Origin: a virus
DNA: 45,003 nucleotides
Reading direction: 5' to 3' (one strand)
Virus record (IMG/VR): IMGVR_UViG_3300031785_000010
Span: 1-45,003 of that record
The notes beneath the pieces were generated by a model that saw nothing but the letters and a program-made list of their open reading frames with translations, was not told where the DNA came from and made no database searches. This document shows, piece by piece, positions 13,322-45,003 of the stretch. Numbering within the stretch: position 1 is the first letter of the stretch; each line of letters begins with the position of its first letter. Made by a program: the position numbers and the translations under genes.

Positions 13322-14875
13322 ATGACAGACGCAATAGTCAAAGATCTTAGCTTTGGAGATGAAGCTAAAAAGAAAATATTTAAAGGTATTGATAAACTCA
13401 CAAAAGCCGTTAGTTCTACATTAGGAGCTAGCGGCAAACGTGTAATTTTAGAAGACAATACTGGTAATCCTATAATAACAAAAGATGGTGTTACCGTTGC
13501 TGATTCTATAATACTTTTAGATCCAGTAGAAAATATAGGGGCAAAACTTATTAAAGAAGCCGCTAAAAAAACAGTTAAAGAAGCAGGAGACGGAACAACT
13601 ACAGCTACTGTATTAGCATATTCTATTCTTCACCATGCTGGTAATGAGTTAAACAACTTAGGGCCAAGAAAATTAAAAGAGGGTATAGATAGCGCTGTAG
13701 AAAAAGTAATAAATTATTTAGAAAAATCTTCAGTTAAAGTTAGAGGAAAAATGATAGACCAAGTAGCGGGTATATCTACAAATAATGATACTATTTTAGG
13801 AAATATAATCGCAGACGCTTATAGATCAGTTGATGAAACGGGTGTAGTTATTATGGAAACTACAGAAAATTCTGAAACTACCTCAGAACTAATAGACGGT
13901 ATCCAATATGCAAAAGGATTAACTAATTCAAATTTTATAACTAGAAAAGATACAAGAGTAGCGGAGCTAGAAAATCCTTTAGTTTTAATTGTAGAATCTC
14001 CAATTGAAAATATTAGAAAAATTCAATCAGTATTAGAGTTTGTTATAAAAAATAATAAATCATTATTAATTATTGCTGATGTTGATCCTAAGGTTATTTC
14101 TACTTTAGCGATGAATAAAATGAAAGGTAATATTAAAATAAATATTATTAATGCACCTACTTACGGGGTATCAAAAAAAGACATGTTAAGCGATCTGGCT
14201 TTACTAACTAAAGCTACAATAGTTAATGAAGATTTAGGTGATGATATGGATTTGATTCAACCTGATTTTTTAGGGCATTGTGTAAAATCAATAACTACTG
14301 ATACAGAAACAGTTATTAAAGTAGCCGAAATAGAAGATAGCGTAAAAAGCATTATTGAAAATGTTAAATCTGAAATAAGCAATACTAAAAATACTGCAGA
14401 AATACAAAGATTAGAAAAACGATTAGCCAGATTATCGGCTAAAATAGCTACAGTTAAAGTTGGAGCAGAAACAAGTATTGAACTTCAAGAAAAAGCTGAC
14501 AGAGTAGAAGATGCAATATTTGCTACTAAAGCAGCTATTAAAGAAGGTATAGTGCCAGGCGGAGGAGTTGCTTTATTAAATGCGGCTCAAAATATAATAC
14601 CTTTAAATGAAGCAGAAAATATATTATTAGAAGCAATTAAATCTCCATATAATACAATTTTAGAAAACGCTAATTTGCCTTTAAATTATAATAATAAAAA
14701 AGGGTGGGGAGTAGATGTAATTACAGGAGAAAAAAAGAATATGACTAATTCAGGAATTATTGACCCATTATTAGTTACTAAAACTGCTTTAAAAAATGCC
14801 GCCTCTGTAGCCACCACTATTTTATCAACTGATTGTGTAATTAATAATTTAAGAACTAATGAAAGCGGTGGGTAA
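13322..14875 (+). CDS. groEL: Phage-encoded chaperonin GroEL
   Basis: This 517-residue chaperonin has the ATP-binding and hydrolysis motifs intact: IITKDGVTVADS with Asp55, EAGDGTTTATVLA with Asp90, and RVEDAIFATKAAIKEGIVPGGG with Asp397, corresponding to E. coli Asp52, Asp87 and Asp398. It is about 30 residues shorter than E. coli GroEL and lacks the C-terminal GGM tail, ending in LRTNESGG. The apical substrate groove is altered: the E. coli segment GYLSPYF is GLTNSNF here, and IREMLPVL is IRKIQSVL, so several hydrophobic contacts are replaced by polar ones. It overlaps groES by 17 nt and lies in the late region, so it probably folds capsid or tail proteins together with the phage co-chaperonin. 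Confidence 0.95.
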   Translation: MTDAIVKDLSFGDEAKKKIFKGIDKLTKAVSSTLGASGKRVILEDNTGNPIITKDGVTVADSIILLDPVENIGAKLIKEAAKKTVKEAGDGTTTATVLAYSILHHAGNELNNLGPRKLKEGIDSAVEKVINYLEKSSVKVRGKMIDQVAGISTNNDTILGNIIADAYRSVDETGVVIMETTENSETTSELIDGIQYAKGLTNSNFITRKDTRVAELENPLVLIVESPIENIRKIQSVLEFVIKNNKSLLIIADVDPKVISTLAMNKMKGNIKINIINAPTYGVSKKDMLSDLALLTKATIVNEDLGDDMDLIQPDFLGHCVKSITTDTETVIKVAEIEDSVKSIIENVKSEISNTKNTAEIQRLEKRLARLSAKIATVKVGAETSIELQEKADRVEDAIFATKAAIKEGIVPGGGVALLNAAQNIIPLNEAENILLEAIKSPYNTILENANLPLNYNNKKGWGVDVITGEKKNMTNSGIIDPLLVTKTALKNAASVATTILSTDCVINNLRTNESGG

Positions 14876-15119
14876 AAATTTAATTATACAAAAAGAAAAA
14901 CAAGGGGTTTCAAAAACCAAAGGCGGATTACTTTTAACTGAAAATAATAGAGAAGACTTAAGATATAATAAAGCAAAAGTAATTTCTACAGGCAGTGAAG
15001 TAAAAGGCGTTCAAAAAAATGATAATATTTTTTATGACAAGCATGCGGGACATGATGTTGAATATGAAAAAGAAATATTTCAAGTTATACAAGTTCAAGA
15101 TGTTGTTATTGTTTTATGA
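14859..15119 (+). CDS. groES: Phage-encoded minimal co-chaperonin GroES
   Basis: The protein has 86 residues versus about 97 in E. coli. A GroES barrel is recognisable: KAVGKNLIIQKE as the first strand, a mobile loop ending GGLLL (residues 22-26, the E. coli GGIVL contact), KAKVISTG, NDNIFYDKHAG, and a C-terminal DVVIVL strand. The roof hairpin between the ISTG strand and the NDNI strand is reduced to a few residues, so the dome opening may be wider, as reported for the T4 co-chaperonin Gp31. It starts inside groEL, and its stop overlaps the next start as ATGA. The order groEL then groES is the reverse of the usual bacterial operon. Confidence 0.9.
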   Translation: MKAVGKNLIIQKEKQGVSKTKGGLLLTENNREDLRYNKAKVISTGSEVKGVQKNDNIFYDKHAGHDVEYEKEIFQVIQVQDVVIVL

Positions 15120-17315: not shown

Positions 17316-17468
17316 ATGAAATCTATTGGTCTTGGTGATGACATACATAAATTTACTACTAAGACTGGTATTAAGTCAATAGTAGACAGAGTCAGCGAGG
17401 GATTAAATATCCCTTGCGGCTGTGCTGCTAGACAAGAATGGTTTAATAAAAAATTTCCTTATAAATAA
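17316..17468 (+). CDS. Hypothetical small protein with CGC motif (50 aa)
   Basis: A frame from ATG 17316 to TAA 17466-17468 encodes 50 residues: MKSIGLGDDIHKFTTKTGIK, followed by a segment with NIPCGCAARQEWFNKKFPYK at the end. The CGCAARQEW-NKKFPYK ending resembles short phage proteins I have seen elsewhere. The two Cys in CGC could bind metal. The gene starts 2 bp after the previous stop and ends 1 bp before the metallopeptidase start, so it is embedded in the operon. Function unknown. Confidence 0.55.
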   Translation: MKSIGLGDDIHKFTTKTGIKSIVDRVSEGLNIPCGCAARQEWFNKKFPYK

Positions 17469-17469
17469 A

Positions 17470-17775
17470 ATGGGATTTAAACTACCGCCGCCTCCTTATA
17501 AAAAATTAGGAGTACCTATTTATCTTCAAGATTTAGGAGATGATACATTAGGTAAAGCTAATAATAATGAAACTATTTTAATTAATAGTAAATTAGATCC
17601 ATCAGAAAGAGGTAGTGTTATTAAACATGAAATGGTACATATAGACCAATTTCGTAGAGGTGATTTAGATTATGATGGAAAAAATGTATATTGGAAAGGA
17701 AAAGTATATCCAAGAAATAAAATGAAAGAAGGTGCTAAAAATTTACCTTGGGAAAAAGAAGCATATAATGTATAA
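17470..17775 (+). CDS. Small zinc metallopeptidase-like protein (HExxH)
   Basis: The chosen start at ATG 17470 lies directly after the preceding stop. An in-frame ATG at 17422 would overlap that gene by 47 nt and is less likely. The 101-residue product has VIKHEMVHIDQFRRGDLDYD with the zinc-binding HEMVH at residues 53-57, and downstream NLPWEKEAYNV supplies Glu95 or Glu97 as a possible third ligand. The N-terminus is Pro-rich (MGFKLPPPPYKKLGV). It is much shorter than typical secreted proteases and has no signal peptide. Adjacent to a holin-like gene, it might act on the envelope or on virion proteins. The zincin assignment is firm by motif; the substrate is unknown. Confidence 0.65.
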   Translation: MGFKLPPPPYKKLGVPIYLQDLGDDTLGKANNNETILINSKLDPSERGSVIKHEMVHIDQFRRGDLDYDGKNVYWKGKVYPRNKMKEGAKNLPWEKEAYNV

Positions 17776-19043: not shown

Positions 19044-19266
19044 TATTATAAGAAAAATCAGTATTGGTTCTGACTATAAAAATGATGCTATGCATTACTC
19101 CTTAGGACAAGAGGTCTACGGGGGTCATAAAATAGCTTACATCATATTTGACGATTCTGATAATTCTTATAATATTCATATTAAAAAAAATAAAGAAGTA
19201 TTACCATGGAAAAAATTTAATAGCAATATGGCCGTTTCCGTAGAATACAATTTAGAATATGAATAG
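19036..19266 (+). CDS. Conserved hypothetical protein (76 aa)
   Basis: The start chosen is ATG 19036, which gives an 8-nt overlap with the preceding gene. An in-frame ATG at 18973 would add a Lys-rich extension encoded entirely inside the previous gene. The 76-residue protein begins MSSIIRKISIGSDYKNDAMH and has a beta-rich middle (YGGHKIAYIIFDDSDNSYNI). I recall similar short proteins next to terminases in uncultured marine phages. No catalytic motif is visible. It overlaps the tandem GroES-like gene by 8 nt. Confidence 0.6.
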   Translation: MSSIIRKISIGSDYKNDAMHYSLGQEVYGGHKIAYIIFDDSDNSYNIHIKKNKEVLPWKKFNSNMAVSVEYNLEYE

Positions 19267-19864
19267 CATTTATGATTTTATTGTTGAGCCAATAGGTGAA
19301 AGATATAATAATAAAAAAGCTATAGGTAAAAAATCTTTAATTTTAAATACAAGTATTGAATCATTTAAATTTATTAATAAACAAGCTAAAGTAATTGCTA
19401 TTCCTCTAGCATATAAAACTCCAATAAATGTAGGAGATAAAATAATAATTCATCATAATGTTTTTAGACGTTATTATGATATAAGAGGACAAGAAAAAAA
19501 TAGCAGTAAGTATTTAAATGAAGATCAATATTTTTGTCAAATAGACCAAATTTATTTATATAACAATAATAATAAATGGCATACTTTTGGCGATAGATGT
19601 TTTGTTAAACCTTTAGTAAATAAAGACAATTTAAAGCTTCAAAAATTACAAGATCATATTGGTATATTAAAATATGACAATAGCTCTTTAAACAAGCTTA
19701 AAATTAAGACTGGAGACTGTGTGGGATTTACACCTAATTCAGAATTTGAATTTTTAATTGAAAATGAGTTTTTATATTGTATGAAATCTAATGATATTGT
19801 AATTAAATATGAACACCAAAAAAACAAAACTGAATATAATCCAAGCTGGGCAGAAAGCGGTTGA
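19259..19864 (+). CDS. Tandem GroES-like (double co-chaperonin fold) protein
   Basis: This 201-residue protein appears to contain two GroES-type barrels. Domain 1 (about 5-102) has DFIVEPIGER, a loop ending KKSLIL, KQAKVIAIP, INVGDKIIIHHNVF and YFCQIDQIYLY. Domain 2 (about 108-185) has GDRCFVKPL, DHIGILKY, LKIKTGDCVGFTPN and FEFLIENEFLYCMKSNDIVI. Both follow the GroES order: first strand with V-P, loop, a strand like KVIA, then V-GD-V, then a final D-I-v strand. Chloroplast Cpn20 is a known tandem GroES protein. It lies upstream of the terminase rather than in the groEL/groES cassette and overlaps both neighbours. It may be a second co-chaperonin, or a virion protein built on the same fold. 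Confidence 0.6.
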   Translation: MNSIYDFIVEPIGERYNNKKAIGKKSLILNTSIESFKFINKQAKVIAIPLAYKTPINVGDKIIIHHNVFRRYYDIRGQEKNSSKYLNEDQYFCQIDQIYLYNNNNKWHTFGDRCFVKPLVNKDNLKLQKLQDHIGILKYDNSSLNKLKIKTGDCVGFTPNSEFEFLIENEFLYCMKSNDIVIKYEHQKNKTEYNPSWAESG

Positions 19865-36359: not shown

Positions 36360-37481
36360 ATGGAACAAATAATTGAAATTTTAAAACTTATATGGTACGG
36401 CCATGAAATTGAAGGGTTAATAAGGCTAGAGCCTATAAGTGCCGCAACTGGAGCTATTATAGGAGGCGCAATAAATTTATTTGGAAGTATTTTTGGTGCA
36501 AGTAAAGCTAGTAAAAGAGCTCGCCGAGCAGCTGCCGAAAGACGACGTCTTGAAAATGAATTAAAAAATTTAGAAAAAAATAGACAACCAATAATAAATC
36601 CTTATCAAAATGTTGAAGACATATCAGGAATGTTTCAAGATTTGTCAGGAATGGTAAGTAATCCATATGCAAATTTAGGTGTAGCCACTAAAGCCGCAGA
36701 AATTCAAATAGAACAAACTGATCAAGCATTAGCTAATACTCTTGACTTTCTAGCAGCTACAGGCGCAAGTGCAGGAGGAGCAACTGCATTAGCTAGAGCC
36801 GCAGCTCGAGGAAAAAGAGGTGTAGCGGCAAATATAGAACAACAAGAATTGCAAAATGAAAGATTACGTGCGCAAGGAGAAGCTAGATTAGAATTAATAC
36901 AAATGCGAGAAGCTGGAAGACTTCAAGGGGCTCAAGTATCTGAAGCGTTAAGATTACAACAAGCTGACGTTGCTGCAAAAGATTTTGAATTTTCTACACG
37001 TGAAAGAAGAGAAACTGAGCAGTTAAATAGAAAACAAGCACAAATAACTAATGCGGCTCAAGCTCAAGCAAATGAAAGAGCAAATGCGGCGGCTATATTG
37101 GGTTCTGGAATTCAAGGAGTTACTAGTACTACTAATGCATATTTACAAAGCCAATACGAGCCAAATAGCCAGATGCCTCAAAACCAGGAGGTACCTTTAT
37201 CAAGTCCATCGCCACCACCGTCAAGCCCTTCTAATCCGTATGCGGGTTTTACAGGAACTTTTTCTGATAGAAGATTAAAGAAAAATATTAAACTTATTGG
37301 TAAATCTAAAGAAGGAATAAATATTTATATTTTTGAATATATAGATAAAATATTTGGTAACGGAATATTTCAAGGCGCAATGGCTGATGAAGTTAATCCT
37401 AATGCTGTTTTTAAACATCCTAATGGATATAACATGATTAATTACTCTATGATTGATGTTAAATTTAAAAAATTAAACTAA
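36360..37481 (+). CDS. Internal virion / pilot-like protein with C-terminal S74 chaperone domain
   Basis: The protein has 373 residues. Residues 28-48 form an Ala/Gly/Ile-rich hydrophobic segment (AATGAIIGGAINLFGSIFGA), followed by a basic coiled coil (KRARRAAAERRRLENELKNL) and Gln/Ala/Arg-rich helices up to about residue 260. This layout resembles DNA-ejection or pilot proteins. A Pro-rich linker (SSPSPPPSSPSNPY) leads to an S74-type intramolecular chaperone domain: SDRRLKKNIKLIGKS with Ser302 and Lys307 in the catalytic spacing, then YIFEYID and GAMADEVNP. S74 domains normally trimerise fibres and cleave themselves off. The domain is short but keeps the key residues. Confidence 0.65.
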   Translation: MEQIIEILKLIWYGHEIEGLIRLEPISAATGAIIGGAINLFGSIFGASKASKRARRAAAERRRLENELKNLEKNRQPIINPYQNVEDISGMFQDLSGMVSNPYANLGVATKAAEIQIEQTDQALANTLDFLAATGASAGGATALARAAARGKRGVAANIEQQELQNERLRAQGEARLELIQMREAGRLQGAQVSEALRLQQADVAAKDFEFSTRERRETEQLNRKQAQITNAAQAQANERANAAAILGSGIQGVTSTTNAYLQSQYEPNSQMPQNQEVPLSSPSPPPSSPSNPYAGFTGTFSDRRLKKNIKLIGKSKEGINIYIFEYIDKIFGNGIFQGAMADEVNPNAVFKHPNGYNMINYSMIDVKFKKLN

Positions 37482-39016
37482 TGGGTGCATACGAAAATCC
37501 AAACTTCGTTGATGAAAGTAGAGCAGGTTTAGTGTGGGCTAATGTTATGAATAATATTAGTCAGCAAACTACTGATTATATACAATTTACAAAACAAAAA
37601 GATAACGAAGAAGCCGCTCGGGTACAAAAAATACTTGACGAAACAGCAGAATATGCAATTAATAGACAAAATGATGTTTATAATAATTTATATAAATTAA
37701 AAGCTAATCCACAATTATTTGAAGAAGTTAGTAAATTATTAGATGAAGAAACTAATGCTTATCTTAATATGCGTAACTCTTCTGACCCGGCTTTAAGAAA
37801 AAAATATTTAGAAAAACAAAATATATATTCTACGGGGCTGGGGAAATTATACGGTCTATTAAATGATGGCATAGAATCGAACGCTTTTTATGCTGAAACT
37901 TATGACCCTGTTTTAGCCGGCGGCCCAGGAGGTATTAGCCGCACACAACCGGGAATAGATAAATATGTTGAAGGTATGTCTGTAAGAACTGGCACAAAAG
38001 AAGGCACGCAGTCTTTAACAATGGATGAAAGTGGTAATTGGATTATTAATATTAAAGATAACAGTGGCAAAACTATAGTAAATGAGCCTGCCGAGCTATT
38101 TTTTAATTATACCCCTACACTTATAACTGACTTGCCAGCCGAAATTAAAAAAATATATGCTTCAAACGGAATATCAAACGAAGATGGATATTTGTCAGAA
38201 CAATATCAATCTAAAGAAAATGAATTTATATATGGGGCTAAGGGCATTGTACAATTTAGAAAAAAAATTAATGCAGGTAAAGTAGCAACAGTTGTTGGAG
38301 GGCAACTTAATGCAAAGGTACAAGCACTTATAGAAGATCCTTTACAAGCAGAAGCAATATGGGGTGTTATAAGAACAAAAGATGATCCTGAAAAAATAAA
38401 TATTGCTAAACTATTATCTGACGAAAAATTAAGAATGAAATTTTATGAAAGATTTAATTCATTTGCCGCGGAATTATTGCCCGTATCTGAAGCAAGTAAA
38501 GCTTTCGATTATCGAGATTTTAATAAAACAGGTGGTAGAGGGAGTAGTGGTGCGAGTAAAAAATTTGATCAACGTAAAATACAAATAGTTTCAGATATAG
38601 CTTCATCAGTGAAAGAAGTTATAAAACAAAAAGCAGCTTTTATACCTGAAACTCAATTTGCACCTGGAACGGTAGAATCAGTTACCGGCATGATAGTAAA
38701 TCAGCCGACCTCAGAACTTGAAATTAGTGCTGTAGATGCTGCAAAAATATTAAATAGCTACGGAGTTAATAATGTAAAAGCCGATAAAGGTAAACTTTTA
38801 TTCGACACAGGAAAAAGAAATAAAAATAACGAGCGAATTTTTCAGATTATAAAAGCTTTTGATAATAATAAAAATATTTATGGTGTTTTAGAAGCTTATA
38901 GATTTACTTTACCAGCTAGTGAAAAAAATGAAATAGATGATATTGCAGAATTATTACAGCTATATGTAAAACCATCTATAGACGAATTTGAAGAATATAA
39001 AGTAAAAGAAGATTAA
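37481..39016 (+). CDS. Putative internal virion protein (511 aa)
   Basis: The start overlaps the previous stop by one base (TAATG). The 511-residue protein begins MGAYENPNFVDESRAGLVWA and is mostly helical in the first 130 residues (DNEEAARVQKILDETAEYAI). It has a Gly/Ser-rich stretch (KTGGRGSSGASKKFD) near residue 350 and ends acidic (IDEFEEYKVKED). Its position between the pilot-like protein and the giant protein matches internal virion proteins ejected with DNA in podoviruses. No lytic transglycosylase or other catalytic motif was found. Confidence 0.5.
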   Translation: MGAYENPNFVDESRAGLVWANVMNNISQQTTDYIQFTKQKDNEEAARVQKILDETAEYAINRQNDVYNNLYKLKANPQLFEEVSKLLDEETNAYLNMRNSSDPALRKKYLEKQNIYSTGLGKLYGLLNDGIESNAFYAETYDPVLAGGPGGISRTQPGIDKYVEGMSVRTGTKEGTQSLTMDESGNWIINIKDNSGKTIVNEPAELFFNYTPTLITDLPAEIKKIYASNGISNEDGYLSEQYQSKENEFIYGAKGIVQFRKKINAGKVATVVGGQLNAKVQALIEDPLQAEAIWGVIRTKDDPEKINIAKLLSDEKLRMKFYERFNSFAAELLPVSEASKAFDYRDFNKTGGRGSSGASKKFDQRKIQIVSDIASSVKEVIKQKAAFIPETQFAPGTVESVTGMIVNQPTSELEISAVDAAKILNSYGVNNVKADKGKLLFDTGKRNKNNERIFQIIKAFDNNKNIYGVLEAYRFTLPASEKNEIDDIAELLQLYVKPSIDEFEEYKVKED

Positions 39017-39017
39017 T

Positions 39018-42000
39018 ATGCCTCTATATAAATCAAATGGTATTACTTATGATCTGCCGCCCGAGCAGGTGGCGAGATTTAAAATGTTAAACCCAGAAGC
39101 AATTTTGTTAGAAGAAAAACAAATTGTAGAAGTGGAAAAGACAAACCCTTCGCAGGAGACAAAGAGTGCGGCTGTGAAGGAAAATGTTGCACTCAAACCC
39201 GCCATTACGGATTCCATGTTGGAAGATATTTCTTTGGAATTACCAAAAAATAGTATAAGAAAAAAAGTTCGGCAACAAGATTTAGAAAGAATTAAATTAA
39301 AAAAAGATGAAGACCGCACTATAAATGATAATACAGATTATTTATCTGAATTATTAAAAGCTGGCGATTTATCGTTAGGAGAAGCAATTTTTAGTATTCC
39401 TGGATTTTTATATGGCGTTACTAAAGATTATACTCCTATAGGTATTGCAGCTCAAAAAATTAATGAGTTAATGGATTTGCCGCCTATGTGGTCAACGAAA
39501 GAATTTAATGAAAAAATTAATGCTCAACCTATAATTGAATCATTAATAGAAGAAAGAGAAGACCGTTTAAAAAAAGTACAAAATTTCCAACAACAAAGAG
39601 ATTTACAAAACGATATATTAGAAAATTTAGATGGCACAGCAGAAGGATATAAAAAAGCAGCTTTAGTAACTGCAGGGCAATTAGCTCAAAGTTTGCCTAC
39701 AACTGCTGCTATTATGGCCGGGGGTGTTGCTGGGCTTGGTAGGCTAGGAATGATGGCTGGCACAACAACGCTTTTAGGCGGGCCTGAAGCTAGACAACAA
39801 GCAATAGAAAATCCTGAACAATCAGAAGCTATAAATACACTAAAAGGATTAGGTATGGCAGCGGCTGAAGGCTTTTTTGAAAGTTTAATGGGGGCTGGCG
39901 CTATAGGAAATGTATATAAAGATATTATATTTAGAGAAGGCCCTGAGGTTGGTCAAAGAGTATTTAAAAATTGGTTGGTAGAATCTTATGAAACAGCTTT
40001 AAAAAAATTAGGTATTCCCGTGGCTATGGTTGGCGAAGGCACAGAAGAAGTAGCAACACAGATTACGCAAAATTTAATTAATAATAAAGACCCTTTTGAA
40101 GGTGTAAGTAATGCTTTTATATTAGGTGTTGCTGGCGGAGGTGCATATGGCGCGCCTATAAATATTGTAAAAATTAGAAACGGAATTAAAGATGCAATGG
40201 TTTTATCTAAAATTAATAAAGATTTAAAACCAACTGAATATACAAATATTAGTTATGCATTTGATCCAATAAATATTGCCGATCAAGCTCAAGTAAATAT
40301 TGCACAAATTAAAGGAGCAGATAAAATATTAAATGATAAAGTTAATAGAGAAGTTTTAGGAGGTAGAATAACTAAAGCCAAAGGAGAAGAAATAAAATTA
40401 AATTTTAGAGCAACACAACAAGCGACTAGCCAAATAAAAAATATAGCTTTTAATAATGCACAAAAAGTTGAGGCTGTTGAGTTATTAAAAAGAGGTAATG
40501 CTTTAACAAATCAAATTAAAGAACAAGATAATGAAGGTCTTAATCGGCCACTAATAGGAGAATTAAAAAATATAAATGAAAGATTAAATACTTTAGCATT
40601 AGACGCTCAAACAGGAACAATTACTAAAGCCATAAAAGGAAAAAATATTATTCGAGCTAAAAATAGTGAAGAATTAAAAAATAAATATAATATTACAAAT
40701 AAGCAGGCCCTAACAGCGGGGGCTTTTGTAAATCCAGCCGATAATAAAATATATATTAATGAAGAAGTAGCTGTTGAAACGGGGGACATAGATGTTGCAC
40801 AACACGAGTTGCTACATGTAATTCTGCAAGATCAATTTAAAAGTGCAAAAGATAAAGGTAAAAATTTAATAGAAGAATTTAAAAATATTGTAGGCAAAGA
40901 AAATTCAAAAATCGTTGATGATATAATTAAAAATGAACCTGCATATGATGAAAATTATATGCGAAATAACCCTGATGAATTTTTAACTCAGTTTAGTAAT
41001 GCTGTTTTAGAAGATAGAGTTAATTATAATGAAACAATATTTACTAAAATAAAAGATTTTTTACAAAAAATTTTTGGTTCTAAAGGTTTTAAAAGTAAAT
41101 TTAAAACAGGTAAAGACGTATATAATTTTATGCGTAATTATTCTCAAAATATTAAACAAGGTGAATTATCTACAAAGGTTTTAAAATTAGTTCCAGAAGA
41201 AATACAGGTTGATGATGTTGTAATGTCAAAAAAGGCATCAGAAAAAGTACAAAAATTATATGAAGAAAAAGGTCCTGATGAAGCCGCTTTTGAAATAATA
41301 CAAGAATTTAAACCTATAACTTTAGATTTAACCCGTAAAAGAAGAAATGCCCCTAATTATAATGAAGAAGAATTAGTAAGTGAAATAGAAACTGGTAAAG
41401 GTGGTATTTTTGATTTAATTAGAAGTTATAAAAAAGATTCGGGGGTTCCGCTAGCTGCATATATAAATAGTTTATTACCAAAAAGAACTATTGCTGCGTC
41501 TAAAAGAGTTTTAGGCGAAGAGTTTACCGCTGATATAGCCGATGTACAGATAGCTGAAACACAAGCGACTGAGCCAGAAGTTATTGAAACCGCTGTTCAA
41601 GAAGAGCTGCCAAAAATTAAAATAGCTGAAAGAATTTTTACGCCTGAAGAACAAACAAAACTAAAAGAAAAAGTTAGTCAGGAGCTTCCAAATATCACAG
41701 AGGAACAATTAACTTTTAAAACCTTACCTAACTTAACAGCAGAAGTTATTGCTGAAAAGTTAAATATGCCCGCTAAAAAACTTACAGGCGCTGCTAATTT
41801 TACGCAAGATGAGTTTGGTCGTGTACAACAATTTATAAAAGATAATATTAAAACTGTTAAACTTGCTTTACCGCAAGCGGCTGTATTAGAAGGCGAAGCT
41901 GTAAGTGAAGAGTTAATAGGTACTGCAACTAATGTGCCAAATAAATTATTAAAAAATCCTAAGCTATATACCAGATTAGAAAGAACTACAAAAAAAGCCG

Positions 42001-45000
42001 GGTTAGTTCCATATCAAAAAAATAAAAACATTCAGGATGTAGACATATTAGAAGCAATAGGTATTATAGAGGATAAATTAACTAAAGGGCCGCGAGATCC
42101 TGAAGCCCAGACAGCTAAAGGTATGCTCAACATATTAGGAAGAACCGCAGCTAATCAGGAAGTCCGCGAACAAGGTGCACAAACAGAAACGCTTTCTAAA
42201 TCTCAACAATTAGATACTAGGGCGGGTATAGGAGATAATATTTTATTTAGTGCGAAAGGTAAAAAAGTTTCTAATAAAATAGTAGACAAAGCTTTTAGAG
42301 ATCCTAAAGAAGTTAAAAAGGCTAGAGAAGCATTAATAGATACATTAAAATTACTAGGTATAGAAAATGCTATTCAATATATAATTCCTACAGCCCGAAG
42401 ATCAACAGCAAAAAAAGTAACATATAAAGTTATTGAAGAAATAGGAAATGAATTAAGGGTTAAAGAACTCGATGGGCAAAATTCAACACGTTATTTTTTA
42501 GTTGAAAATCAATCTGACTTTGTTAATAATTTATTAAAGAAAGCTTTTCCAAATGATAATATAAAATTAACAAAAGGAAACCAAGCTATATCTGTAAATG
42601 GAAAAGAAATTATCACTCCTAAATTTACTAATATAGGTCAAAGCCCTAAAGGATTTACAGACGGAACATTTGAAAATAATATTCAAGAAAGAGTAAATTT
42701 TGCTTTAGAGCAAAGAGCAGGAATGAAAAAAATTGTTGAAGCTTTAACGTCATTATATAATAATAATGTTATAGATGAAAATCAATTGTTTATGATTTTA
42801 CAAACATTTAATTCTTCTGTTGAAGCATTAATTAGAACTGCCGCTATTCCTAAATTTTATTTTAAAGGAACTGGAAAAACTGATGAGGATTATAGATATG
42901 AGCATACGCAAACTGCTAGTGATACATTAGTTGAAATTTTTAGATTAATAGTAAAGCCTAATACAGGTTATACATTTGATCAAATAATGGAAGGATTTGA
43001 TGTAGCGATTATTCCAAAAGTTTATGATAATATAATAAATACGGAGCATCGAAGTGAAGGCCCAAAATTAGATGGAACAAAAACAGGTAAATTAATTTTA
43101 GGCAAAGGAAAAAATATTAAAAGATATTTAACTCCAAATGTAAAAAGAAAAATTAAAGAGGCTAATCTACCTCCTTTAAATTTAAAAGAATTTAAATATA
43201 GTGTTCCACAAGAAAATAAAAATATATTATTTTCTAAAAAGAAAGCGGCATCTAAAAATAATAGTAAATTACCTAAAAGTAAACAAGCAAAAAAAGGAAG
43301 CACTAATCAGTTAGTTTTAGATAACATGAAATTAATTGATGAAGAAATAAATCAAAGACGTAAAGAATTTTTTGATACTGAAAAGCTTAGCCAAGACTTT
43401 AATAAAATAATAGAAAATAAAACTGGTATTGCTAAAGAAAAAAAATATAGCGATGCTAGAGCTCAAACAGTTGGTGCTAACAAGGGCAGGTTTAAGTTTT
43501 TTATACCCCCGTCGGCAGAAGATTTTGTTGGATTATTATATAATACTTTAGGTAAAGGAAAGCTTGGTGAACAACAGATGGCTTGGTATAAAGAAAATTT
43601 ACTAGATCCATATGCTAGAGCTATGAACGAAATATCTTCTGCTAGAGTAGCGTTGTATGAAGATTATAAAACATTAAAAAAGGATTTAAAAATTATACCT
43701 AAAAATTTACGCAAAAAAATACCTGGAGACGATTTTACAGTAGAGCAAGCTGTGCGAGCTTATATATGGAATAAGCAAGGTATGGAAGTCCCGGGGCTTG
43801 ACAATGCTGACGTGCGTGAATTAATATCTTATGTAGCTAATAATAATGAGTTAGTTGTATTTGCAGATAATTTAATTGATATAAATAAAGGTGATGGTTA
43901 TCCTGAACCTGATGCGGGCTGGGAAGCAGGTACTATTACTACAGATTTAATAAATGGTATAAATACAACTCGCCGTGCAGAAGCATTACAACAATGGCAA
44001 GAAAATGTAGATATAATATTTTCTAAAGATAATTTAAATAAACTTCAAGCGGTATATGGTACAGGATATAGAAAAGCATTAGAAAATATTTTAACTCGAA
44101 TGAAGACGGGAAGAAATCGTGGTTTTAATAATGATTCTCTTACTGGTAGATTTACAGATTGGATTAATAATTCAGTTGGAGCAATTATGTTTTTTAATAT
44201 GCGATCAGCTTTATTGCAAACTATATCTAGTGTAAACTTTATTAATTACTCCGATAATAATATATTTAAAGCAGCTAAAGCTTTTGGTAACCAAAAACAA
44301 TATTGGTCTGACTTTAAGTTTTTGTTTAATTCTGACTTTTTAAAAGAAAGGCGTGGCGGTTTAAGATTTAATGTTAGCGAATCCGATATAGCCGATATGG
44401 CAAAAGAAGGTGGCGCAAGAGGAGTATTAAGTAAAATACTTCAAGCTGGATTTTTACCTACGCAAGCTGCTGATAGTTTTGCTATTGCATCAGGAGGTGC
44501 TACATTTTATAGAAACAGAATTAATGCTTTAGTTAAAGAAGAGTATAATAATAGAATAAATAAATATTTAGCTGATGCTCGATCAACAAACCAGCGCGTG
44601 TCCGCTAAAGAAATTAAAAGAAAAGTTGATTCTGAATTAAAAGAAATAGAAAAAAAAGCACAAGAGCAAGCATTTTTAGATTTTAGAGAAGTTGCTGAAG
44701 AAGCACAACAATCAAGTAGGCCTGATAGAATTAGCGCTCAGCAAGCGGGCTCATTAGGGCGCATTATATTAGCTTTTGCTAATACGCCAGCTCAGTATGC
44801 TAGATTAACTAAAAAAGCTCTTTCAGATGCCGTAAACAACCGTGGTAGCCGTATAGAAAATATATCTAAAGCTATTTATTATGTAGCTGTACAAAATTTT
44901 ATATTTACCGCTTTACAAAATGCTTTATTTGCTTTAGCTTTTGATGACGAAGAAGAAGAGGATAAAAAGAAAGAACAAAAATATTTGCGTATGGCAAATA

Positions 45001-45003
45001 ACA
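39018..45003 (+). CDS. Giant polyvalent virion protein with HELLH zincin motif, partial at the right edge
   Basis: The frame opens at ATG 39018 and shows no stop through the window end, so at least 1995 residues are encoded and the C-terminus is missing. Residues 212-260 are hydrophobic (LPTTAAIMAGGVAGLGRLGM). AQHELLHVILQD places the zinc-binding HELLH at 596-600, with following acidic residues as possible third ligands. Repeated short ILFSKK-type segments occur at 735, 1075, 1403 and 1666. The region after about 1430 contains RFKFFIPPSAEDFVGLLYNT, and about 1711-1980 contains FFNMRSALLQTISSVNFINY and a hydrophobic end before an acidic patch (FDDEEEED). Such giant proteins are probably ejected into the host. 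The role is inferred. Confidence 0.75.
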   Translation, partial: MPLYKSNGITYDLPPEQVARFKMLNPEAILLEEKQIVEVEKTNPSQETKSAAVKENVALKPAITDSMLEDISLELPKNSIRKKVRQQDLERIKLKKDEDRTINDNTDYLSELLKAGDLSLGEAIFSIPGFLYGVTKDYTPIGIAAQKINELMDLPPMWSTKEFNEKINAQPIIESLIEEREDRLKKVQNFQQQRDLQNDILENLDGTAEGYKKAALVTAGQLAQSLPTTAAIMAGGVAGLGRLGMMAGTTTLLGGPEARQQAIENPEQSEAINTLKGLGMAAAEGFFESLMGAGAIGNVYKDIIFREGPEVGQRVFKNWLVESYETALKKLGIPVAMVGEGTEEVATQITQNLINNKDPFEGVSNAFILGVAGGGAYGAPINIVKIRNGIKDAMVLSKINKDLKPTEYTNISYAFDPINIADQAQVNIAQIKGADKILNDKVNREVLGGRITKAKGEEIKLNFRATQQATSQIKNIAFNNAQKVEAVELLKRGNALTNQIKEQDNEGLNRPLIGELKNINERLNTLALDAQTGTITKAIKGKNIIRAKNSEELKNKYNITNKQALTAGAFVNPADNKIYINEEVAVETGDIDVAQHELLHVILQDQFKSAKDKGKNLIEEFKNIVGKENSKIVDDIIKNEPAYDENYMRNNPDEFLTQFSNAVLEDRVNYNETIFTKIKDFLQKIFGSKGFKSKFKTGKDVYNFMRNYSQNIKQGELSTKVLKLVPEEIQVDDVVMSKKASEKVQKLYEEKGPDEAAFEIIQEFKPITLDLTRKRRNAPNYNEEELVSEIETGKGGIFDLIRSYKKDSGVPLAAYINSLLPKRTIAASKRVLGEEFTADIADVQIAETQATEPEVIETAVQEELPKIKIAERIFTPEEQTKLKEKVSQELPNITEEQLTFKTLPNLTAEVIAEKLNMPAKKLTGAANFTQDEFGRVQQFIKDNIKTVKLALPQAAVLEGEAVSEELIGTATNVPNKLLKNPKLYTRLERTTKKAGLVPYQKNKNIQDVDILEAIGIIEDKLTKGPRDPEAQTAKGMLNILGRTAANQEVREQGAQTETLSKSQQLDTRAGIGDNILFSAKGKKVSNKIVDKAFRDPKEVKKAREALIDTLKLLGIENAIQYIIPTARRSTAKKVTYKVIEEIGNELRVKELDGQNSTRYFLVENQSDFVNNLLKKAFPNDNIKLTKGNQAISVNGKEIITPKFTNIGQSPKGFTDGTFENNIQERVNFALEQRAGMKKIVEALTSLYNNNVIDENQLFMILQTFNSSVEALIRTAAIPKFYFKGTGKTDEDYRYEHTQTASDTLVEIFRLIVKPNTGYTFDQIMEGFDVAIIPKVYDNIINTEHRSEGPKLDGTKTGKLILGKGKNIKRYLTPNVKRKIKEANLPPLNLKEFKYSVPQENKNILFSKKKAASKNNSKLPKSKQAKKGSTNQLVLDNMKLIDEEINQRRKEFFDTEKLSQDFNKIIENKTGIAKEKKYSDARAQTVGANKGRFKFFIPPSAEDFVGLLYNTLGKGKLGEQQMAWYKENLLDPYARAMNEISSARVALYEDYKTLKKDLKIIPKNLRKKIPGDDFTVEQAVRAYIWNKQGMEVPGLDNADVRELISYVANNNELVVFADNLIDINKGDGYPEPDAGWEAGTITTDLINGINTTRRAEALQQWQENVDIIFSKDNLNKLQAVYGTGYRKALENILTRMKTGRNRGFNNDSLTGRFTDWINNSVGAIMFFNMRSALLQTISSVNFINYSDNNIFKAAKAFGNQKQYWSDFKFLFNSDFLKERRGGLRFNVSESDIADMAKEGGARGVLSKILQAGFLPTQAADSFAIASGGATFYRNRINALVKEEYNNRINKYLADARSTNQRVSAKEIKRKVDSELKEIEKKAQEQAFLDFREVAEEAQQSSRPDRISAQQAGSLGRIILAFANTPAQYARLTKKALSDAVNNRGSRIENISKAIYYVAVQNFIFTALQNALFALAFDDEEEEDKKKEQKYLRMANN

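Follow-up and report, generated by a model that had tools for sequence, protein, structure and literature searches.

A giant, putatively particle-borne protein of a marine podovirus joins a predicted gluzincin to a domain resembling sigma-70 region 2

Introduction

The closest described relatives of the protein discussed here, in build if not in detectable sequence, are the polyvalent proteins of phages (Iyer et al. 2017, PMC5512222), among them N4 gp50 and P1 DdrB: giant multi-module proteins encoded beside virion genes, with an internal zincin-like MPTase, mosaic effector cassettes and a C-terminal helical module. All of these traits recur in the giant protein of a marine phage that we describe below – the last of them as a fold similarity to PolyVal/LPD proteins – and the protein itself is probably carried in the particle. 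Unlike the described examples, however, it has no catalogued polyvalent domain by sequence, and it carries a sigma-2-like domain. The terms ‘sigma factor’ and ‘sigma-70’ find no match in PMC5512222, and in those portions of the literature that were searched we found no description of a sigma domain inside a polyvalent protein.

Two cultured phages offer a positional comparison. In Flavobacterium phage vB_FspP_elemoA_7-9A (Elemovirus; NC_055852), gp21 likewise closes the same structural operon, and its product of 3694 aa, annotated as a structural protein, carries a homologous zincin (residues 1526–1665, HEIFH, 36 bits with the zincin profile described below), but no sigma-like, EH or C-terminal module detectable by sequence; it also has a DUF3293. 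In Cellulophaga phage phi18:3 (NC_021794), gp123 is the last gene of a syntenic operon and is annotated as a virion protein from MS/MS; HExxH, however, is absent from it, and neither the family HMM nor the zincin profile detects any similarity to the giant protein. More distant points of reference are sigma-70 region 2 (PF04542; WhiG, SigK, RpoS) and LPD38 (PF18857), a phage-type polyvalent domain, both of which are taken up with the modules that resemble them. Although the polyvalent kind is known, neither the architecture of the giant protein nor its sigma-like domain and linker motif was found described in the literature searched.

Genomic setting

The window – by which we mean the whole 45,003-base virus contig analysed – terminates within the giant gene. 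No later gene is seen in the structural operon to which it belongs and which also encodes the terminase, the portal, the capsid and further virion proteins. The phage is a podovirus with a terminase closest to those of flavobacterial phages: an uncultured podovirus shares 62% identity with it, Flavobacterium elemoviruses about 44% and Cellulophaga phages about 38%. It is this terminase relationship that points to a host.

The giant gene, the features within it and the two genes ahead of it all lie on the + strand. Two genes upstream (36360–37481) is a virion structural protein recognised by its family match (phrog_6121). This family provides the nearest recognised upstream gene in 84 of 101 relatives, with a gap that would fit another gene, and it matches gp99 of phage phi38:1, which stands two genes ahead of the giant gene of that phage. 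In the window the intervening position is occupied by a 511-aa gene (37481–39016) with no PHROG family, a homologue of which adjoins the giant gene in 14 relatives. The position of phi38:1 gp101 is the one that the giant gene has here, with no detectable sequence similarity between the two. Presence in virions had been proposed as a check, and since phi18:3 gp123 is not detectably homologous either, the support for it is indirect and comes from gene position. A separate observation, made by eye only, is that the C-terminus of the 36360–37481 product (SDRRLKKNI...MADEVNP) resembles an intramolecular chaperone of the peptidase S74 type.

Extent and overall build of the giant protein

The first-pass annotation had described an open-ended reading frame of at least 1995 residues, with an HELLH at 596–600 and several distinct regions, and each of these points was borne out. 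The frame (39018–45003) starts with an ATG at 39018 and runs free of stops to 45002, where its 3′ end is open; the HELLH is encoded at 40803–40817; and four separable modules follow one another in the same order across relatives. Two relatives, L004 and L003, continue for 171 residues beyond the last aligned residue of the window protein, so that about 171 residues are probably missing and the full length can be estimated at about 2165 aa. The same annotation had noted hydrophobic segments near both termini. Both are present, albeit weak, as the best 19-residue Kyte–Doolittle means (1.44 at residues 366–384 and 1.42 at 1956–1974) fall under the level usual for a membrane span. Residues 1–566 (39018–40715) form a variable N-terminal region of low conservation and weak hydrophobicity, with Gly/Ala-rich stretches.

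One scan yielded 36 relatives, and a profile of the C-terminal module at least 598 confirmed loci. MAG contigs on which the module occurs bear several bacterial labels (several of these Bacteroidota) and one archaeal label. The family is thus common, and yet neither Pfam nor PHROG offers a significant match to the window protein. The comparisons below use a set of 103 full-length ORFs with a median of 2498 residues. In 49 ORFs the modules stand in the order zincin, sigma-like, EH and tail, and the remaining ORFs hold subsets of these in the same order. Cultured phages gave no match in a direct tblastn with the giant protein; when the HMM of the whole family was compared with four cultured giant proteins it matched none of them, and only the zincin profile crossed over.

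The zincin module

Residues 567–725 (40716–41192) form a predicted gluzincin module, recognised by an iterative profile, by the elements of an AF2 model and by weak Pfam zincin matches among its members. Within it, HELLH (residues 596–600) would supply the His pair of zinc ligands and the catalytic Glu, and E654 (40977–40979), in the motif EFLTQFSNA, is the predicted third ligand. Whether the motif is kept in homologues had been proposed as a check, and it is kept in the form HExxH: 89 of the 103 full-length relatives have it, against 0.4% of shuffled copies, which argues that its presence is no accident, and all 89 except one have exactly one copy. H596, E597, H600 and E654 are among the very few near-invariant columns in an otherwise fast-evolving region.

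The iterative profile, seeded with residues 546–735, reaches 94 ORFs. HExxH and the downstream Glu occur together in 82 of 98 aligned rows, the remainder being split alignments of single proteins and eight rows from one clade with EELFH (L005, L006, L069, L070, L076, L079, L087 and L138), in which the downstream Glu is kept and whose sequences suggest an inactive zincin or an altered metal site. Alignment A7 shows no variation at E597, H600 and E654 and next to none at H596 and Y643. In the AF2 model, HELLH and E654 sit on two successive helices, with a small sheet before them; the predicted order of elements is strand, helix, strands, HExxH helix and Glu helix, and this is the arrangement described for polyvalent MPTases (PMC5512222). 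Among 75 members, the weak Pfam matches are led by Peptidase_M78 (16 of 75), with SprT-like, DUF3267, DUF5700 and ATLF also listed. A PDB sequence search with the profile returned no zincin among its matches, so the assignment draws on the motif together with the predicted elements and the weak Pfam matches; nor was there a zincin chain among the matches listed when the model of residues 540–1440 was compared with PDB by Foldseek. The conservation of its active site makes it likely that the internal gluzincin is an active zinc peptidase.

Comparison of sequences indicates that this module is exchanged between relatives while its motif is kept. The tail of L004 is 90% identical to that of the window protein and residues 735–1070 are nearly identical for the most part, but the HExxH module is a different one.

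The window also encodes a second, separate HExxH protein, a 117-aa ORF with HEMVH (17422–17775, +) that has weak matches to phage metallo-protease families. In L015 a homologue of this ORF (33% identity, E 1e-11) is fused downstream of the C-terminal module, and this fusion links the 117-aa protein to the giant protein.

The sigma-like domain

The zincin is followed by a domain at residues 737–1056 (41226–42185), for which an iterative profile collected 78 ORFs and Foldseek returned sigma-factor matches from two libraries. When the model of residues 540–1440 was compared with PDB, RNA polymerase–sigma entries made up most of the best 50 matches, each with an E of at least 0.25, the listed chains being taken as sigma subunits from their chain letters and lengths; against BFVD, the matches included several phage sigma factors with a probability of up to 0.95. 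Sequence profiles point the same way. Of 11 PDB matches to the 737–1056 profile, most are sigma factors (best sigma E 0.0077), and a narrower region-2 profile matched 11 PDB chains of which seven are sigma factors from several subfamilies (WhiG, SigK, ECF SigE). The similarity centres on a core resembling sigma-70 region 2 at residues 745–862 (41250–41603), with GGIFDLIRSYKKDSGVPLAAYINSLLPKR.

Each sigma match is weak when taken individually (most have an E of 0.01–2), and profile–profile comparison (hhalign) with a small set of sigma factors was not significant, though the expected segment was the one aligned. Pfam Sigma70_r2 was matched by only two of 64 members. The likeness to sigma-70 region 2 is one of fold and motif, from which residues 745–862 depart in falling under the Pfam threshold, in being embedded in a giant protein and in lacking the tryptophan pair of region 2.3 that serves promoter melting, SL standing at the aligned positions of the window protein. 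Matches from different subfamilies align at one segment in these four separate searches, and we consider that residues 745–862 probably have a sigma-2-like fold. That the domain would also bind RNA polymerase is a reading of the fold match to which we give less credence than to the fold itself. The first-ranked match to the sigma-like profile was in fact a histone H2B (E 0.0019); it covers another segment and comes from a single family, and was treated as a probable chance match.

EH module, HAD cassette and C-terminal module

The third module, at residues 1157–1349 (42486–43064), was recognised in 83 ORFs and is named EH for its two near-invariant residues, E1295 (82 of 83) and H1296 (83 of 83). 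One Foldseek row had raised a MuF-C/PBECR identity, which was set aside because no coherent picture came out of sequence searches of Pfam and PDB. In 31 of the 103 relatives a HAD phosphatase-type motif stands ahead of the tail; none was found in the giant protein of the window. A match to phrog_415, ‘polynucleotide kinase’, covers this HAD motif, and in the absence of convincing P-loops a P-loop kinase was rejected as its explanation.

The C-terminal module (residues 1452–1995; 43371–45002) continues past the end of the record and has roughly 50–65% identity to relatives in most 50-residue bins. For the L004 homologue, AF2 predicts an all-helical tail with moderate confidence (pLDDT 63, pTM 0.62). 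Searched with Foldseek against BFVD, this model matches, beyond close relatives, phage proteins that include ART-PolyVal, LPD and MuF-C entries, with E from about 1e-9 to 1e-3 and 11–16% identity. A PDB sequence search with the tail profile gave no match. Membership of LPD38 (PF18857) was tried and rejected, there being no HMMER match at the curated cut-off and only a weak hhalign match (P 0.15) to LPD38-carrying proteins.

Two smaller features of the tail may be recorded. Relative to its homologues, the window protein has an insertion at residues 1843–1877 (44544–44648), an exception to the identity range given above. In L031 (5419–9654 and 10034–11881) and L013 (9167–12073), the ORF that holds the C-terminal module is a separate one or is much shorter, an arrangement of the sequence which suggests that it can work apart from the zincin, although the L031 case may be a frameshift.

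Linkers between the modules

Two short linker motifs of the window protein, both ILFS, stand out as candidate processing sites: one between the sigma-like and EH modules (residues 1075–1078; 42240–42251) and one ahead of the C-terminal module (residues 1403–1406; 43224–43235). Across relatives, sigma–EH linkers contain the general form [ILVM]xFS 31 times, where 5.2 would be expected, and EH–tail linkers 40 times, where 10.7 would be, counts that are not independent events, since some sites are inherited, and that come from the very sequences in which the motif was first spotted. With similar linkers removed, it is still found 27 times against 4.9 in the former (the maximum in 2000 shuffles being 14) and 23 times against 5.5 in the latter. 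Inside the modules, by contrast, it is depleted, with one occurrence against 6.6 in EH and two against 8.7 in the sigma-like domain, and within the zincin it is slightly under expectation (6 against 9.8). FS is the most enriched of all 400 dipeptides in the sigma–EH linker, but not in the EH–tail linker. Judged by this distribution, the [ILVM]xFS linkers could be cleavage sites between the modules.

The internal zincin is a likely candidate for the enzyme. In N4, the virion RNAP enters the particle uncleaved although it has an MPTase of its own (PMC5512222), which counts against a self-processing reading. The zincin might instead cleave host proteins after injection and leave the giant protein alone, the linkers then being hinges or sites for some other protease, such as a prohead protease. 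Host targets are one option given by Iyer et al. (PMC5512222), and host conflict would be expected to leave near-identical genomes with different protease modules and an otherwise constant protein; the sequence does vary widely around a fixed active site. Against this stand the concentration of the motif at module borders and its depletion inside two modules, which fit processing of the chain itself, and the fact that no host target is known; on balance we regard cleavage of host proteins as an unlikely reading, albeit one to be taken seriously.

A possible role at infection

Two of the marks by which polyvalent proteins are recognised are a place among virion genes and a combination of at least two disparate domains. 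The giant gene lies among virion genes, and its product joins zincin, sigma-like, EH and tail modules, to which HAD is added in relatives. The first-pass annotation had proposed a polyvalent protein and had suggested a search for LPD families as a check; that search reached neither LPD nor any other catalogued polyvalent domain by sequence. The proposal gains from the modular build, the HAD cassettes of relatives and the fold matches of the tail to annotated PolyVal/LPD phage proteins; the sigma-like domain, the EH module and the linker motif go beyond what that annotation had noted. We give an even chance to the view that these proteins are a new branch of phage polyvalent proteins that is packaged, is injected and is then split into effectors, for which its own zincin may be responsible.

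On this reading, the giant protein, whose gene stands among the structural ones, would be loaded into the particle, perhaps by means of the conserved helical C-terminal module, a role that we infer for it from its conservation, position and fold match. At infection it would enter the cell along with the DNA, where the internal gluzincin would most likely cleave the chain at the [ILVM]xFS linkers. Cleavage would free the sigma-region-2-like domain, whose fold similarity suggests that it could bind the RNA polymerase of the host, and would also free the enzyme-like EH module. A more specific version is that a polyprotein carried in the virion brings in an RNA polymerase binder of the sigma-region-2-like kind, freed by its own zincin at ILFS-type linkers, and so captures host transcription before phage expression and without a phage polymerase; this version is unlikely. 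No RNAP, ART or lysozyme domain was found in the giant protein.

The place of the gene beside structural genes and the conserved helical tail would also suit a protein that is mainly an internal head or ejection protein, comparable to the internal core proteins of podoviruses; its enzyme-like modules would then be of minor importance or in decay, and its likeness to sigma that of a generic helical bundle. The weakness of the sigma matches one by one and the loss of the first His in the EELFH clade favour such a protein, but near-invariant residues of catalytic type in the zincin and EH modules, and HAD motifs in nearly a third of the full-length relatives, are unexpected for a passive structural component, and a generic bundle sits poorly with the agreement of different sigma subfamilies on one segment; we judge it improbable. 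Another reading is a maturation protease that works at assembly on itself, and perhaps on further virion proteins, and stays out of the host cell. It has a precedent in P1 DdrB, which is processed before packaging with its own MPTase as the predicted cause (PMC5512222), but it leaves the sigma-like, EH and HAD modules without an evident role in assembly and is very unlikely.

Should the sigma-like domain of the preferred polyvalent reading prove real and bind RNA polymerase, podoviruses would have one more way of seizing transcription within the first minutes of infection. It had been suggested earlier that the modules of polyvalent proteins are released by internal zincins; thanks to the linker motif, a single active-site change and two short sites suffice for a direct test of this, and the homologous zincin of the cultured elemoviruses makes the protease part testable in a Flavobacterium host.

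A C. baltica protein-methylation paper (PMC13288928), in which gp101 of phi38:1 goes unmentioned, lists the GroEL of that phage among methylated virion proteins, and near its terminase the window likewise encodes a phage GroEL (13322–14875), a GroES (14859–15119) and a second GroES-like protein (19259–19864).
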